Shown piece by piece: positions 18,438 through 25,201 of a stretch of 25,201 bases of DNA. Position numbers and translations under genes: made by a program. Location: the IMG/VR virus record IMGVR_UViG_3300044613_001132, positions 1 through 25,201 of that record. One strand, written 5' to 3'. The DNA is from a virus. The notes below the pieces were generated by a model, which was not told where the DNA came from, ran no database searches, and saw only the letters and a list, made by a program, of their open reading frames with translations. The first letter of the stretch is position 1. Each line of letters starts with the position of its first letter.

Positions 18438-20054
18438 TTAAAGATTTTTCCACTCATTCTTTTGAGTTAATGAACCAAAGGTTATGTCGCCATAATGTTG
18501 TCCGGGCGGTTGATAGAAGGCTAAGAGTATGGCTTCCGCTCGGTCAGGAGATTTCATTCCCCTTCGCTTCATATCTTTTTTACTTTCAATAACTATTCGA
18601 CCACTTGAGTCTGATTTATAAGTCGGACCAGATAACTGGGCGAGCGCTTTTGTATCGACATCGAGCCTGATGCTTTGAGTAACTCCTTGGTCGGTGGTAA
18701 TTGGTTGAACAAGTGTTCGAAAGTTCCACCACATCTCAGACCTTTGATTATGAAACTTACCTGAGTCTTTTGCTCGCTCGGCAACATTAACGGCAACAAT
18801 AATTGCTGAGTGCATTTGTTCGTCTCTCCATCGTTTAAGGATTCCAGTTACTCCCCAACCAACTCCAATGGAGTCAATCTTTACAACGACAGGTTCTTTT
18901 ATTTGTCTCTCTCGATGAATCTGTTCGGCTTCTTTTATTTGTTGTAATACCTGTCCAGCCACATCGACAGGATTAGAGTTAGCACTTCCTGATGAACGAT
19001 GACGAACTGTTCCTACATAACCATCAGCCCATGCAATAACGAACTCATCTCCACCATCAGAAGCCACATCCACGCCAAGTTTAATTCTGTTATCGGTTAA
19101 AGGATTATCGTTTTCTGTACAAGCCTCAAGCCAACTATAAGGAATAGTTCGATTTGTGGACATACGAGGAAAGCGAGCATGAACACGAGCCTCGACAAAA
19201 GCAGAGTCGTCTCCAAATTCATTTATAACATCTCTAACCCAAGTTTCATCTACTAAGTGAGAAGAAACAGAATGTTCAGCCACGCTTGCTGGACATGAGC
19301 GACATATACCAGCAGACTCGCCTGTGAAGTTAGGAGTGTCGTATGCACCAATCGGAATTACATTATACAAATCTGAATTACAGGCTCGTTCAAACCAAGA
19401 GTCTTCGTTATCGGTTGGAGGGTTCCCAAGTAATAAAAGTCTTGTGTGTCCACCAGTCATTAGAGATTCAAGTGCAACACCAAGAGTTTGAGAAAGACCG
19501 CCAGCCTCATCAACTACAACTAACAAGTGTGGAGCGTGAATACCCTGAACTGCGGTCTCATCTGTATCGGCAGGAGAAAATCCAAAGGCAACTAACTCGC
19601 CATCTATCTTCCACTCAACCTGATTTACTTCACCGCCAATGTTCGACTTCTTTACAAGTTTTCGAATATGAGGCCAAAGGATATTTTTCACCTGTCGAAA
19701 TGTTGTTGCTGTTGTTACTACTTGAGCGGTTCCAACAGGATGTACTGCAATCCACCAAGCAATAATTCTTGCGGCGATGTGAGATTTTCCGGGAGCGTGG
19801 CAAGCAGGAACGGCGGTTCTTTTATTATCTCGAACGGAAGTAACAATTTCTTTTTGTTTAGTCCAAAGCGTTTCGCCTAAACCTTTTTCAATAAAACCAA
19901 CTGGGTCTTCTTCATAAATCAAATAAGGGTTGTGTAAGTAAGCATCTAAAAGTCGAACAATGTAATTGCGTTCTTCGTCAGTTAAGGTCGCATAGATAGT
20001 CGCTCGCTCAGTCGGAGTCGATGATAGAATCGCCTCCAGATATGGCGTTGGCAT
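18438..20054 (-). CDS. terL: Terminase large subunit
   Basis: A 538-residue DNA-packaging motor. The ATPase domain has a Walker A-type ACHAPGKS (84-91), Walker B LLVVVDEAGG (177-186, Asp182/Glu183) and coupling motif LLLLGNPP (206-213). The nuclease domain has RNase H-fold acids: D329 in LGVDVASDGGDE, D394 in VKIDSIGVGWGV and D504 in SPDRAEAILLAF. It cuts concatemeric DNA and pumps it through the portal. The ATG at 20054 has GGAGG 7 nt upstream and lies inside the end of the small subunit (47-nt overlap). It is the last gene of the operon, followed by a strong terminator. Confidence 0.95.
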   Translation of the reverse strand: MPTPYLEAILSSTPTERATIYATLTDEERNYIVRLLDAYLHNPYLIYEEDPVGFIEKGLGETLWTKQKEIVTSVRDNKRTAVPACHAPGKSHIAARIIAWWIAVHPVGTAQVVTTATTFRQVKNILWPHIRKLVKKSNIGGEVNQVEWKIDGELVAFGFSPADTDETAVQGIHAPHLLVVVDEAGGLSQTLGVALESLMTGGHTRLLLLGNPPTDNEDSWFERACNSDLYNVIPIGAYDTPNFTGESAGICRSCPASVAEHSVSSHLVDETWVRDVINEFGDDSAFVEARVHARFPRMSTNRTIPYSWLEACTENDNPLTDNRIKLGVDVASDGGDEFVIAWADGYVGTVRHRSSGSANSNPVDVAGQVLQQIKEAEQIHRERQIKEPVVVKIDSIGVGWGVTGILKRWRDEQMHSAIIVAVNVAERAKDSGKFHNQRSEMWWNFRTLVQPITTDQGVTQSIRLDVDTKALAQLSGPTYKSDSSGRIVIESKKDMKRRGMKSPDRAEAILLAFYQPPGQHYGDITFGSLTQKNEWKNL

Positions 20055-20508
20055 TACGCGCCTCCAATACTGCTAAAACCTTTTGCTCAAGTGTAACGAC
20101 ATCCACATTCATATTCACTTGAACAGGAGCACCTTCGGCTCCAGTTATTTCAATTCGAGGACTCCATCGGTCAGGGAATCGTCTTGCTAAAAAGTCTTTT
20201 GCCGCTCTCCAATCGCCATCTCTAATAGCGTTCTGCCATTGAGTAACAGACCTTACCTCGGCTGTGTTTTCTGCTTTCTTAACTTGTCGAAAGAACTCAA
20301 CGAAAGGTGCTTCTTTCGCTAAAGGCTTAGAACGAGGATTATTTTCTAATCGAAGGACTTCAGCACTACCTCTAGCCATCCAGTTGTAAATGGTTTGTTC
20401 GGAAACACCAATAAATTCGCAAGCCTGTCTTACGAAAATGCCTTGAGCAATTAACCGAGTAAATTCGTTTTGAACTTCTTCGGTTAGTTTTGTGTTCCGA
20501 CCAGCCAA
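20008..20508 (-). CDS. terS: Terminase small subunit
   Basis: A 166-residue protein with an N-terminal helix-turn-helix (about 8-50: VQNEFTRLIAQGIFVRQACE, GVSEQTIYNWMARG), a charged helical middle (FVEFFRQVKKAENTAEVRSV) and DWRAAKDFLARRFPDRWSPR (about 99-118), a phrase I know from small terminases. It recognises the packaging site and loads TerL. The start is TTG with GGGAG upstream, 1 nt after the FolE stop, so it is translationally linked to the modification genes, an unusual arrangement. Confidence 0.87.
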   Translation of the reverse strand: MAGRNTKLTEEVQNEFTRLIAQGIFVRQACEFIGVSEQTIYNWMARGSAEVLRLENNPRSKPLAKEAPFVEFFRQVKKAENTAEVRSVTQWQNAIRDGDWRAAKDFLARRFPDRWSPRIEITGAEGAPVQVNMNVDVVTLEQKVLAVLEARNANAISGGDSIIDSD

Positions 20509-20509
20509 G

Positions 20510-21070
20510 TTACTCTCCCGTTAGCGTTAGGAATTCTGTTCGTGCCGCTAAGTCTGTTCTCATCAGACCAAGAGTAACAGAGGTAACCATTGTTCCATTC
20601 TTTTTAATTCCTCGGTAACACATACAAGTATGACGAGATTTAACTATCACTCCTACTCCCAATGCGCCAACATGAGTGTTAATAGCATCAGCAATCTCTT
20701 GAGTAAGTCTTTCTTGGACTTGAAGTCGCTTTGCAAAGGTATCTACAACTCGAGCCAACTTTGAAAGTCCTACAACTCGTCCATTGGGAATGTAAGCAAC
20801 TGAAGCCTTACCTTCAAATGGAAGCATGTGATGTTCGCACATACTTACAAAAGGAATGTCTTTAAGAGTTACCATTTGGTCAAAAGGCACATCAAAGTTA
20901 GTTGAAAGAATTGCTTTTGGGTCTTCTCTGTAACCCTCAGTCATTTCGCGTAATGCTTTAGCAACTCTTTTAGGAGTATCTAAAAGTCCATCTCGCTCAG
21001 GGTCTTCTCCAATATATCCAAGCAATACTTTTACTGCTTCTCTTGCTTGCGGTTCTGTTACCTCACTCAT
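20510..21070 (-). CDS. folE: GTP cyclohydrolase I (FolE)
   Basis: A 186-residue enzyme that converts GTP to dihydroneopterin triphosphate, the first step of 7-deazaguanine synthesis. Zinc-site motifs are intact: SMCEHH (77-81, Cys78 and His81) and RHTCM (146-150, Cys149), with catalytic His80 and His147. [20 protein letters not shown] (28-47), [18 protein letters not shown] and [16 protein letters not shown] also match. I placed the start at the internal ATG at 21070 (TAATG overlap with QueE); the longer frame to 21127 would be inside QueE. Its presence with QueD, QueE and DpdA points to DNA modification rather than folate. Confidence 0.95.
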
Positions 21071-21780
21071 TAGTGACCTCTCTTTGCGCCCCAAATGGCG
21101 ACATGGGTTCGTGGAGTTATATTCCAACCGCGAGCAATCGCATCGTTAGCAATAACTTCCATGTGTCTGTTTAACTCCTCAGTACTTCTTCCCTCAGGCA
21201 TAATCCAAATGTTTCGGTCAGGTATCCCTGCCTCTAATTGAATTGCCTCAACCTCATCTAAGCACTCTTTTGATTGGCACACAAACTTAAACGCCACAGG
21301 AGTCCCCGAAGCCATTAATGCTTTGAGAACTTCAGGCTTTCTACGCTTCTTGAGAAGAACGCCGGAATTATTTAATTTAGGAGAACAATTAATTTGAGTT
21401 ATCAAAGGAAAGAGTTCAGGGTCAGGAATAATAGTTCCATTAGTTTCAATTTCAATAGCGATTCCATCAAAAGCAAGAAGTTCAAAGACAGGAACTAATT
21501 CCCTTTTATGCATCATTGGCTCTCCACCTGAGAACACAACTCGCTCAACATCTAACTTTTTGATTGCTTGGTAAATGTCTTCAACAGACATAAATGTTTC
21601 TTCTTTTTCTCGGTCATAAGCAGTTCCATTAAGACCTTTAAAGTCCCATGTGTAAGGCGTATCGCACCAACTACAAGTTAGATTACAAGTCATTAATCGA
21701 ACAAAAGCACATCGCCGACCCGAAGAAGGTCCTTCGCCTTGAATTGTTGGACCAAAGATTTCGCTTACATAGATGCTCAT
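21070..21780 (-). CDS. queE: 7-carboxy-7-deazaguanine synthase (QueE)
   Basis: A 236-residue radical-SAM enzyme that contracts 6-carboxytetrahydropterin to CDG. The cluster motif CNLTCSWC gives C32, C36 and C39; [20 protein letters not shown] (7-26) is the classic QueE N-terminus, and [15 protein letters not shown] holds the GGEP SAM-binding motif. ETNGTI follows. It overlaps QueD by ATGA upstream and FolE by TAATG downstream, so the three are one coupled unit. Confidence 0.95.
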
Positions 21781-22223
21781 GTAGTTACCAACGCAGAATT
21801 GCCATCGTGTTCAGATACTTCAACGCTTACTAAACGAGCACGAGGCGAATAACCTTTTTCATTTAAGTAATCGACTGCCATGTGATAAATGGTTTCAGCA
21901 AAGGCTTCGCAACCGACATTAGGTAATACATTTAAATCTAAAATACCTAATTTGCTTGCTTTCATAAACCATTCCAATTGTGGGTCGTCTTCGGCTACGA
22001 CAGTTTTATGGTCAAAAAGGTTTGCAACTTTTTGTTTCAACTCTTTCAAGTCGCCAAAATCTACTACCCAGTTTCGGTGGTCGAGTTCTTCGGCTTCAAA
22101 AATAAACTTAACCGCTAAGGCGTATCCATGTACAAAGTGGCAGTGACTTTCTGCTCTCCATTGACGAAAGGCGCAAGATAGTCCTTGTTCATGTCCCCAT
22201 CGTTTAGTGCTTTGATATTTCAT
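21777..22223 (-). CDS. queD: 6-carboxytetrahydropterin synthase (QueD), phage type
   Basis: A 148-residue T-fold enzyme that turns dihydroneopterin triphosphate into 6-carboxytetrahydropterin. Motifs: CAFRQWRAESHCHFVHGYAL (17-36) with candidate catalytic Cys28 and ligands His27 and His32; LDHRNWVVDFGDLK (47-60); FDHKTV; GCEAFAETIY (104-113); and SEHDGNSA (137-144) with the conserved Glu. The HGY in place of the usual HGH belongs to a subgroup I have seen in phages and some bacteria. It starts just after the previous stop (TAAATG) and overlaps QueE. Confidence 0.9.
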   Translation of the reverse strand: MKYQSTKRWGHEQGLSCAFRQWRAESHCHFVHGYALAVKFIFEAEELDHRNWVVDFGDLKELKQKVANLFDHKTVVAEDDPQLEWFMKASKLGILDLNVLPNVGCEAFAETIYHMAVDYLNEKGYSPRARLVSVEVSEHDGNSALVTT

Positions 22224-22571
22224 TTACATTCCGTCCCATTGAATTGTTGCGCCTACTTCATTGTCTTCCCATACGGTGCAAGAGTAACTTCTGTCGGGAT
22301 ATTTGTCACGAACCGCTTTAAGAACAACTTCAGCCATATCTTCACAAGAGCGTCTTCCTAGTTCCCCACCAACAGAAGCGGCAGAAGCAAACTCAAGTAA
22401 GTCGTGAAATTCAATTTCTCTATCGTTGTGTCCAACACTTACTGTTAGTTCGTAATAAAATAAATGTCGATGACGAGAGGCAAGATAATCTCTTGTCCCT
22501 TCGGCTTCAGGCCAACAATGCCAACCTTCTCGAGTCCATCTAACTGTAATCCTTCTACTGATTAGTCCCAT
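22224..22571 (-). CDS. Divergent QueD/PTPS-like T-fold protein
   Basis: A 115-residue protein. GWHCWP (16-21) and SRHRHLFYYELTVSVGHND (32-50) line up with the zinc-binding His pattern of the pyruvoyl-tetrahydropterin synthase family (His18, His34, His36). SCEDMAEVV (75-83) matches the conserved T.E region and VWEDNEVGA (100-108) the catalytic-Glu end. The usual active-site Cys just before HxH is missing. It sits between DpdA and QueD and is coupled to DpdA (TAATG). As a canonical QueD is already present, it probably does something else in the pathway. A CDG-modifying step, such as the decarboxylase (DpdL) proposed for phages making 7-deazaguanine, is one possibility; I cannot confirm orthology. 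Confidence 0.65.
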   Translation of the reverse strand: MGLISRRITVRWTREGWHCWPEAEGTRDYLASRHRHLFYYELTVSVGHNDREIEFHDLLEFASAASVGGELGRRSCEDMAEVVLKAVRDKYPDRSYSCTVWEDNEVGATIQWDGM

Positions 22572-23503
22572 TATGCCGATTCCTTTTCGTCTAGTGGTGG
22601 GTAAATAACATCTCCAATTAAATCTGCTCTCCGTTTATAGAAATCTCTCCAACCAATTTGAGCGTGGTTCATAGAGATAGCGGCGGCTTGGAGAATCTTT
22701 CCATCATCATTAATACCAACTTGAACTCTTTCATCTGCCGAATACATTGAACGCCATTCAGGTTCCATGTGTTCAAGGTAAGCATCGTTCATTGCTTGAT
22801 GAGGAAATGAACCCCAACGAACTGGAGCAATCCAAGTTGAAGCGTCAGCACTATCAATACCAATTGCATTAAAAACTTCAGAAGGATTCATACCAAGAAC
22901 ATGAACCCAAAGGTCAGGATACTTACGATGTTTCTCCCAAAGAGTATGAAGAAGTCTTAATCGTGTAGCGGTATTGGCTTGAACGATATTACCAAGACAC
23001 ATACGGTCATAATTTTCAGCAAGTTCATCAAAGTATTCAGCACCATCGTTTAATGGATGCCAAACTGGTATTGGATTGATACCAAGGTCGTGAAGTTTTT
23101 TACGAGTAATCCTTTTGTTCTTTGCGCCACCTTGGTCGAGTTCCATATATCCCCACACTTTGTCGCCAAGTCTTTTATTAACTGCAAGGTATCGGTCCCA
23201 AAGTTTATCGAAGTTATCAATCTCATCAGGCGCAAGAGCAAGCGCTTCGTCCATTGTAATTCCATGCTTGCGTTTGTGTTCATTTGTTAGCCAAAAAATA
23301 CCTGAGTCCAACAACACCTTTGCGCCTTCATCAATTAACTTTTCAACCGCATCAATATCTTTTTGATTATTTAATTCATTAACGGCAATAAGAAACCAGT
23401 CGTGAGTCTTTGGTATGTTTCCTTTTTCGAGGGTTCCAATACTTCCAGCCAACCAAATTACATGGCGGTCATTTGGATTCCATTTACCTCCAGTTTTAAT
23501 CAC
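22571..23503 (-). CDS. dpdA: DNA guanine transglycosylase, DpdA-like
   Basis: A 310-residue TGT-fold enzyme that would exchange guanine in DNA for a 7-deazaguanine. Motifs: LLDSGIFWLTNEHKRKHG (64-81, Asp66), GYMELDQGG (118-126, Asp123), IPVWHPLND, CLGNIVQAN, WVHVLGM and GIDSADASTW (215-224, Asp217). It lacks the zinc-binding cysteine cluster of tRNA-type TGT; C169 is the only cysteine I see. I chose GTG at 23503 (AGAGGG 6 nt upstream; overlap of 8 nt with the previous gene) over TTG at 23554, which would overlap by 59 nt without a ribosome site. Neighbouring FolE, QueD and QueE supply the base. Confidence 0.88.
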   Translation of the reverse strand: MIKTGGKWNPNDRHVIWLAGSIGTLEKGNIPKTHDWFLIAVNELNNQKDIDAVEKLIDEGAKVLLDSGIFWLTNEHKRKHGITMDEALALAPDEIDNFDKLWDRYLAVNKRLGDKVWGYMELDQGGAKNKRITRKKLHDLGINPIPVWHPLNDGAEYFDELAENYDRMCLGNIVQANTATRLRLLHTLWEKHRKYPDLWVHVLGMNPSEVFNAIGIDSADASTWIAPVRWGSFPHQAMNDAYLEHMEPEWRSMYSADERVQVGINDDGKILQAAAISMNHAQIGWRDFYKRRADLIGDVIYPPLDEKESA

Positions 23504-24284
23504 GATGAACCCTCTTTGCTGAGTCAGCACCTCGGACGGCAATATATTTATCAATGATGTGTCCTGCTAAATAAACATTTGGTTGAACCATTATTGCTGG
23601 CGTTTGGTCTAACTTATACGACAAAGCAATATACGGACCGGGATAAGGAAGGAACAAAAGTCCTTTCTCTAAATACTTAACATACTTTTCCCACTCTTTC
23701 ATTACATCAGCAATTACTAAAAGATGAACGCCTAGTTTCCATACATCGCCACTAAACACTTCAGTCTTAGGTTCGCCATAAGCAACATTAAGAAGCGATA
23801 AGAGTTCGCCTCTATCGGGTTGAGATAGTGCGGCTTCTTCTTTTGAACCACCAAGAGATTCTAAAATAACATCAATATCGCCGCTGTTGTATCCAGTTGC
23901 GGCAAACAAATCAGCATCGAAGGCTTCCATCTCTTTCAATAAAAGATTAAGTTCGCCTTCATCGTAAGTTCCAAGGTCGTGTGTTCTGTTATCCGCTAAT
24001 GAAAAAGCCTTAGCGGTGTTCTCATCTTCGTCAATAAATACAACTGCAATCTCTTTCCATTTCAAAGCACGAGCCGCTTCGAGTTGATGATTGCCTGCTG
24101 TAACAGTTCCAGTAGCAAAACCGTTTTCACTTATTCCTAATCGGCGAGCCACAATTGGTTTGCGTTGTCCGAACTTTTCGTAAGAACGCTTTACTGCTTC
24201 AACATCTCCCTTTCGTGGATTACCAGCCATAGGGGTTAAGTTCTCAATAGGAACTGCTAGTGATTTTAAATCGGGAGCAATCAT
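23496..24284 (-). CDS. ParB-like domain protein with methyltransferase-tail-like C-terminus
   Basis: A 262-residue protein. Residues about 10-135 are a ParB/Srx-like nuclease-type domain: IENLTPMAGNPRKGDVEAVK, KFGQRKPIVARR, TAGNHQLEAARALKWKEIAV (the GNHR-like motif), DNRTHDLGTYDEGELNLLL and TGYNSGDIDVIL. The C-terminal part has VFSGDVWKLGVHLLVIADVM and QPNVYLAGHIIDKYIAVRG, which resemble the entrance (GD.W.LG.H.L...D) and the last helix (P.Y...II.R) of ParB-linked DNA methyltransferases, but no DPPY or FxGxG motif is visible. The ATG at 24284 overlaps the previous stop (ATGA). Confidence 0.75.
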   Translation of the reverse strand: MIAPDLKSLAVPIENLTPMAGNPRKGDVEAVKRSYEKFGQRKPIVARRLGISENGFATGTVTAGNHQLEAARALKWKEIAVVFIDEDENTAKAFSLADNRTHDLGTYDEGELNLLLKEMEAFDADLFAATGYNSGDIDVILESLGGSKEEAALSQPDRGELLSLLNVAYGEPKTEVFSGDVWKLGVHLLVIADVMKEWEKYVKYLEKGLLFLPYPGPYIALSYKLDQTPAIMVQPNVYLAGHIIDKYIAVRGADSAKRVHRD

Positions 24285-25201
24285 TGATTTACCTTTCTTA
24301 CTTTCCAGTTTGTTAATAACAGTCGTTCTGCTATTACCTTGCACGCCTCGTCATGGTTTAGAGGAAGTTCATCTTGCCATATTTGGAACTCACTTCTCGA
24401 CACCTTGAATGTTAATGTTCCAACTTGTCCTTTAACCGTCTTTGGTATTGGAGTTCCTTCACTGCCTCGAAGTATTGAGTCCACATCGTCACCATCAAAG
24501 CCTGTTCCACTAAACTCGGTAAGGCTTGCTAGAAGTATTTGTAATTCTTCATCATCATAAGTTGCTAGGTCAGCGGTCTTGTTATCTGATAAAAGGATTC
24601 TTATTGCTTGTTCATCATCAACTTCAATCCAAGTTACTGCTATCTCTTTCCAACCTAAAGAGTAGGCGGCGTGCCAAGTGTGATTACCAATTAAAATAGT
24701 TAGGTCATTTTTATTAACAATAATTGGTCTGTACTGACCTAATGTTTTAAGCGATTCGCTAATCGCTCCCACATCACCTTCTCTTGGATTGCGAGGGTGA
24801 GGTCTAACATTGGTAATCGGTACGACTTCTGTTCCACCCATAATTACATGATGAGGTTCCAAAAGGTTACCTTTTACCACCTGCTCTTTGAATCCTAATC
24901 GTTCTTTAAGGTGTTCGATTTGTCCTTTTTTATCTTTACTTAACTCTCGTAAGCCTTTACTTAAAGAGTTGAGTTCATCTTCATCGGCTTCGATTACATA
25001 AAGTCCAATACGAACAAGGTGTTCTGTTTCGCTTGAAGCAGGAGGCGCAACAGAAGGTTTATCTTCGTCTTTCTCATCTTTTAAATTAGGTAATGGCGCT
25101 TCATAGAGTCCATCCATCTTATCGAAGTCGTCTAAGTTGTATCCAGTTCCGTCCCACGAATCCAATTCTTCTAAAAGTTCTAAAATAAGTTCATCATTAA
25201 A
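24281..25201 (-). CDS. Tandem ParB-like domain protein, 5' end outside the window
   Basis: The frame is open to the window edge, with 306 residues visible. The first visible residues (FNDELILELLEE, then GTGYNLDDFDKM) look like the end of one ParB-like module. After a charged coiled linker (about 35-105), a complete second module follows: VVPITNVRPHPRNPREGDVG, TLGQYRPIIVNKND, LIGNHTWHAAYSLGWKEIAV, LLSDNKTADLATYDDEELQI and GTGFDGDDVDSIL. A C-terminal segment (GTLTFKVSRSEFQIWQDELP) ends it. Together with the next gene this gives three related modules in a row. The likely role is DNA binding or nicking, possibly linked to modification. TTG at 25165 is not needed as a start because upstream sequence continues in frame. 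Confidence 0.78.
   Translation of the reverse strand, partial: FNDELILELLEELDSWDGTGYNLDDFDKMDGLYEAPLPNLKDEKDEDKPSVAPPASSETEHLVRIGLYVIEADEDELNSLSKGLRELSKDKKGQIEHLKERLGFKEQVVKGNLLEPHHVIMGGTEVVPITNVRPHPRNPREGDVGAISESLKTLGQYRPIIVNKNDLTILIGNHTWHAAYSLGWKEIAVTWIEVDDEQAIRILLSDNKTADLATYDDEELQILLASLTEFSGTGFDGDDVDSILRGSEGTPIPKTVKGQVGTLTFKVSRSEFQIWQDELPLNHDEACKVIAERLLLTNWKVRKVNQ

Follow-up and report, generated by a model that had tools for sequence, protein, structure and literature searches.

The window, that is, the whole stretch of DNA analysed here, is an entire IMG/VR record of 25.2 kb and thus a genome fragment. The genes discussed below all lie on its minus strand. In order of transcription, they are two ParB-like genes (24281..25165, then 23496..24344), a dpdA-like gene (22571..23554), the gene under study (22224..22571), queD (21777..22223), queE (21070..21780), folE (20510..21067), and the genes for the small (20008..20508) and large (18438..20054) terminase subunits. 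The gene under study, hereafter the T-fold gene, begins with ATG and encodes a 115-aa paralogue of QueD that is Cys-less at the catalytic position. The product of the dpdA-like gene, a putative DNA-guanine transglycosylase of 327 aa, matched the queuine tRNA-ribosyltransferase family phrog_887 (E 3e-20) and carries the TGT-like motifs LLDSG and GIDSAD. QueE (236 aa), the radical SAM synthase of 7-carboxy-7-deazaguanine (CDG), matched phrog_2076 (E 3e-60), and FolE, GTP cyclohydrolase I, matched PF01227 (E 3e-69); a longer folE ORF with a TTG start extends to 21127. The small terminase subunit, encoded 3' of folE, belongs to phrog_4102, and the large subunit, further downstream, to phrog_2. The ParB-like gene located 5' of dpdA has the same placement in actinophage dpd clusters.

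The dpdA stop and the T-fold gene start overlap by 1 nt (TAATG), which bore out the original prediction that the two genes are coupled. The T-fold gene stop abuts the queD start (TAAATG), and queD and queE overlap by 4 nt. Comparison of the T-fold gene with that of a 95% identical locus, L003, revealed 29 synonymous and 6 non-synonymous codon differences (dN 0.023, dS 0.57; dN/dS 0.04), and the reading frame was kept across 139 loci. Because of this synonymous excess and the conserved frame, the ORF goes beyond what chance would leave; it is a genuine gene on which purifying selection acts.

The T-fold genes form a phage gene family present in hundreds of contigs. A tblastn search with the T-fold protein gave matches in 22 of 50,697 phage records, none of them annotated, and a search of viral contigs with the family alignment returned at least 576 matches. 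In GenBank, family members are labelled 'hypothetical protein' throughout. No T-fold relative turned up when 84,980 prokaryote genomes were scanned twice with narrow patterns. In PHROGs v4, the protein falls into phrog_17812, whose function is not assigned and which also contains the proteins of phages ACP17 (an unannotated 127-aa protein) and Roos. A transglycosylase gene of the TGT/DpdA type, represented by four different types, was present at 108 of the 115 non-redundant T-fold loci; 113 of them had one or more of the transglycosylase, folE, queD, and queE genes.

The domain was also observed within longer proteins. In Chryseobacterium phage MA9V-3 (L053:7452-8336), it lies C-terminal to an apparent HNH homing-endonuclease domain, and in Vibrio phage Bakedbeans (L051:7182-8363), it is the C-terminal part of a 393-aa protein. 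Two BFVD entries, A0A6J5LEZ6 (459 aa) and A0A8S5V119 (300 aa), which bear the names alcohol dehydrogenase N-terminal and AAA domain, contain a domain structurally very similar to the T-fold protein and may represent fusions.

Fold and conserved residues

No Pfam or NCBIfam model matched the T-fold protein, and none of 41 family members matched the PF01242 profile at an E-value of 0.1. An AlphaFold2 model based on an alignment of 32 relatives (pLDDT 91.8, pTM 0.83) displayed the beta-beta-alpha-alpha-beta-beta architecture of the T-fold, and its top Foldseek matches were PTPS/QueD structures (2dj6, E 5e-6; QueD 4ntk, E 2e-5). In VIA comparisons, the model aligned with E. coli QueD at Z 12.6 and 2.2 Å over 109 residues, and a QueF-like enzyme was among the structural neighbours (Z 10.3). 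Structure prediction against QueD had been suggested as a check of the original prediction, and it returned a T-fold with QueD/PTPS as the closest relatives. Profile comparison pointed the same way: the family matched a phage QueD alignment with 92.6% probability, compared with 0.4-0.7% for FolE, QueE, and DpdA alignments. Judged from the predicted model, the T-fold protein is a PTPS/QueD-derived paralogue and a putative zinc binder.

Among 116 distinct homologues, H18, L30, H34, H36, R51, E54, S75, E77, and E102 do not vary, and H48, D50, D103, and E105 are nearly fixed. The invariant residues provide a short list for mutagenesis. Alignment and secondary structure would place H18 and H34/H36 where QueD has its zinc ligands, and E77 and E102 where it has the two Glu residues that bind the substrate. 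His18, His34/His36, and the Glu positions named in the original prediction are thus present as claimed, with Glu54, Glu77, and Glu102 as conserved acidic sites, and the predicted lack of a Cys ahead of the HxH motif was confirmed as well: the site of the catalytic Cys, which precedes the first His by four residues (CxxxHGH in QueD), is occupied by Leu30 in 116 of 116 homologues. The Asp-His (LDH) loop of QueD is absent from the family, and in the alignment to the PTPS PH0634 this dyad sits in an insertion. Cys76 is the only near-invariant Cys, with no other conserved Cys in the family; it is replaced by Val in 3 of the 116 sequences, and therefore a thiol is not required. Since the Cys position is always Leu and the Asp-His loop is missing, the family is very unlikely to perform QueD chemistry. 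It appears to have kept the metal and the purine/pterin pocket and to have lost the reaction itself.

The neighbouring QueD, which had been described as canonical, proved to be so only in part. The 148-aa protein is of the QueD type (PF01242, E 7e-19) and keeps Cys28, Asp71-His72, Glu106, and Glu138, but its zinc site is degenerate (R...HGY), with Arg for the first His and HGY for HGH. The two proteins could therefore be seen as complementary, the T-fold protein serving as a non-catalytic subunit of a mixed oligomer that makes CPH4: the window QueD has lost two zinc ligands, the T-fold protein keeps the triad and has lost Cys-Asp-His, and T-fold enzymes such as PTPS build their active sites at subunit interfaces. 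However, many phages encode an HGY-type QueD, whether or not they have QueC, and we rejected the mixed oligomer as the main reading because this type also occurs in QueC-positive phages that have no T-fold paralogue (phiSM and RHEph04). Several carriers of the T-fold gene (L007, L026, L040, and L041) encode an intact HGH QueD, and a mixed oligomer would leave the anticorrelation with QueC described below unexplained. We consider it improbable.

Exclusion of QueC and the proposed reaction

The absence of QueC formed part of the original prediction. Although it is not demonstrable from a 25.2-kb fragment, it held in the complete genomes of relatives. We searched for QueC in the whole records of 11 complete, distinct carriers (ACP17, BUCT-ZZ01, RHph_I1_18, PA5oct, Roos, X1, Phosso, Bakedbeans, D479, MA9V-3, and Ahp1), using 14 QueE-encoding phages without the T-fold gene as controls. 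True QueC was detected in none of the 11 carriers by this whole-record search, compared with 13 of the 14 controls. The T-fold protein, in turn, was found in none of the 14 controls, one marginal 37-residue match being disregarded. The anticorrelation gave a Fisher p of 2.7e-6 for counts that are not phylogenetically independent, and a p of 2e-5, likewise ignoring kinship, when the divergent phage IME-SM1 was added as QueC-negative. At the level of individual loci, queC was near the gene at 0 of 139 T-fold loci, versus 26 of 41 queE loci without the T-fold gene.

Gene order showed where the exchange takes place. The order dpdA-queC-queD-queE-folE occurs in L069 and in the actinophages Laurie and Finch, and the window has dpdA-Tfold-queD-queE-folE, with the T-fold gene in the slot of queC. 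The QueE of L069, 54% identical to that of the window, is the nearest among queC-bearing loci. Among Vibrio phages, D479 has the T-fold gene and no QueC, and PG216 and 6E35-1b show the reverse. A QueC candidate in D479 (32.8 bits), seemingly an unrelated paralogue, was rejected; it scored 21 bits with a phage QueC profile, over the C-terminal part only, compared with 295 bits for a real QueC. PG216 and 6E35-1b contain a similar weak extra QueC match beside their real QueC.

Stenotrophomonas phage IME-SM1 (L198), the nearest relative of ACP17, encodes a divergent QueC-like protein (record 112002-112358; 30.8 bits) that adjoins a transglycosylase-like ORF, and has no normal QueC.

Co-occurrence with a QueE-positive, QueC-negative gene content, also suggested as a check, was likewise observed, as QueE was present in 10 of the 11 complete carriers (Roos being the exception). 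A QueD-type PTPS was present in 9 of the 11; D479 and Roos have no clear QueD. The T-fold protein therefore replaces neither QueD nor QueE. It is hardly credible that the protein is just a diverged 6-carboxytetrahydropterin synthase of the usual kind. QueD/PTPS enzymes have the closest fold, and Cys-less PTPS homologues with Glu instead exist (PTPS-III), but in the T-fold family the nucleophile position is an invariant Leu, neither Glu nor Cys, the Asp-His loop is absent, and the 9 carriers with a QueD already have such an enzyme. Very probably, the T-fold protein is an enzyme by which the 7-deazaguanine DNA pathway bypasses QueC, although hosts may supply QueC, so that absence from the phage is no proof that the pathway skips it.

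A bypass enzyme might still lead to the products of QueC by an alternative amide or nitrile route (CDG to ADG or preQ0), or act on preQ0 in the manner of QueF. The position of the T-fold gene in the queC slot, its exclusion of QueC, and the QueF-like structural neighbour are compatible with such a route. However, all T-fold enzymes score alike in structure searches, the 115-aa protein has no ATP-binding motif, and the replacement of Cys76 by Val in some homologues leaves no obligatory thioimide nucleophile. We regard this route as quite improbable.

The fold, the zinc triad, the loss of the QueD catalytic triad, the operon coupling, and the replacement of queC come directly from the computation. 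Because the base is modified by QueE and not by QueC, and a putative zinc T-fold enzyme stands in QueC's place, a reaction on CDG suggests itself. On balance, we favour a putative zinc T-fold enzyme that acts after QueE on CDG, most likely as a decarboxylase giving 7-deazaguanine. Such an enzyme would take the QueE product into a branch without QueC. In the metal-assisted decarboxylation of CDG to 7-deazaguanine that we envisage, Zn(II) would grip the CDG carboxylate, protonation at C7 could be aided by Arg51 together with the His48-Asp50 loop, which hardly varies, and Glu77/Glu102 may hold the pyrimidine ring. Decarboxylation of this kind needs neither a cofactor nor a thiol, and it would fit the invariant residues. 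The product would be the base for the neighbouring DpdA to insert into phage DNA. By swapping guanine for 7-deazaguanine, DpdA would deprive the DNA of N7 and make it resistant to restriction enzymes.

The original prediction had envisaged a repurposed paralogue acting on a 7-deazaguanine, for example as a CDG decarboxylase. The T-fold, the zinc triad, the missing Cys-Asp-His, the coupling to dpdA, and the occurrence in QueE-positive, QueC-negative phages agree with a repurposed paralogue, whereas decarboxylation of CDG is the most economical reading of its reaction. The family likely determines whether guanine modification follows the QueC-type or the QueC-free course, and the presence of the T-fold gene would allow direct prediction of which base a phage carries.

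The coupled glycosyltransferase

A GT4-like glycosyltransferase of the GT-B type (PF00534, up to E 8e-12) was found near the T-fold gene at 97 of 139 loci, compared with 1 of 41 queE loci without the T-fold gene. In whole-record searches, it was present in 5 of 11 complete carriers versus 0 of 15 non-carriers (p 0.007). The glycosyltransferase gene overlaps or abuts the T-fold gene in L040 (L040:4976-6007), L041 (L041:6317-7483), ACP17 (L044:6969-7997), Phosso (L050:8363-9454), and BUCT-ZZ01, and a further GT4-like gene is located at L045:8358-9524. In ACP17, the glycosyltransferase is the 342-aa protein and the transglycosylase is its 424-aa neighbour.

Downstream in glycosyltransferase-bearing loci, we also observed cytidylyltransferase-like genes (27 loci) and NAD-dependent epimerase-like genes (20 loci), a gene content that would suit local synthesis of sugar nucleotides; examples are L132:10804-11295 and L167:11385-12365.

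Plain 7-deazaguanine without a C7 group does not explain the coupled glycosyltransferase, as it offers no obvious sugar site. Either the glycosyltransferase acts on another base, or the product in those phages may bear a group. It is conceivable, if unlikely, that the T-fold protein is a post-QueE enzyme but no simple decarboxylase, and that it provides a C7 group (e.g. a hydroxyl, or a carboxylate activated or retained) that the GT4-like enzyme then glycosylates. Phages without the glycosyltransferase, such as the close kin of the window, which have no coupled copy, would carry the unglycosylated base. The enrichment near the T-fold gene and among complete carriers speaks for such a group, as does the overlapping or abutting arrangement in several lineages. 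On the other hand, the glycosyltransferase follows particular transglycosylase types: it accompanies two of them at 63 of 70 and 9 of 9 loci, and the other two at 3 of 14 (the type of the window) and 0 of 15. About half of the complete carriers lack it, as does the window group, which indicates that the T-fold protein works without it, and the glycosyltransferase may have another base as its substrate.

We are doubtful of a QueC-independent branch that ends, in many large phages, in a glycosylated 7-deazaguanine. In such a branch, the base made by the T-fold enzyme would be a 7-deazaguanine with a sugar-accepting C7 group; the transglycosylase would insert this base, and the GT4-like glycosyltransferase would then add the sugar. 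To our knowledge, DNA has not been reported to contain a glycosylated 7-deazaguanine. The repeated occurrence of the glycosyltransferase hints at a possible additional level of phage DNA modification that would bear on how phages evade restriction enzymes.

Comparison with known systems

The T-fold family resembles QueD (PTPS family, PF01242) in its fold, the three putative zinc His residues, the pterin-anchoring Glu positions, and the pathway context. It differs from QueD in having Leu for Cys, in lacking the Asp-His loop and any PF01242 match, and in possessing a new invariant Arg51 and an HND loop, and it occurs in addition to QueD. With QueC (PF06508), the family has in common the slot between dpdA and queD, and the two genes are mutually exclusive; QueC, however, has an unrelated fold (N-type ATP pyrophosphatase) and is ATP-dependent. 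QueF and QueF-like enzymes have an obligatory catalytic Cys, unlike the T-fold family.

In phages Bipper and Typha, whose dpd cluster has no QueC, the dpdA-queD slot is taken by the 141-aa gp4, a protein with an HxH motif. In the low-confidence model of gp4 from Mycobacterium phage Bipper (L199:2047-2469; pLDDT 64.5), T-fold proteins topped both structure searches, which suggests a second, independent T-fold replacement in the dpdA-queD slot. Sequence homology of Bipper gp4 to the T-fold protein found no support (hhalign 0.2%).

DpdL reportedly has been proposed as the CDG decarboxylase of dDG phages, and both dDG and dCDG are said to occur in phages, ACP17 being among those studied. The T-fold protein shares with DpdL a QueE-positive, QueC-negative phage context with DpdA, and the proposed function of DpdL fits the slot that the T-fold gene occupies. 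The T-fold protein may plausibly be DpdL.
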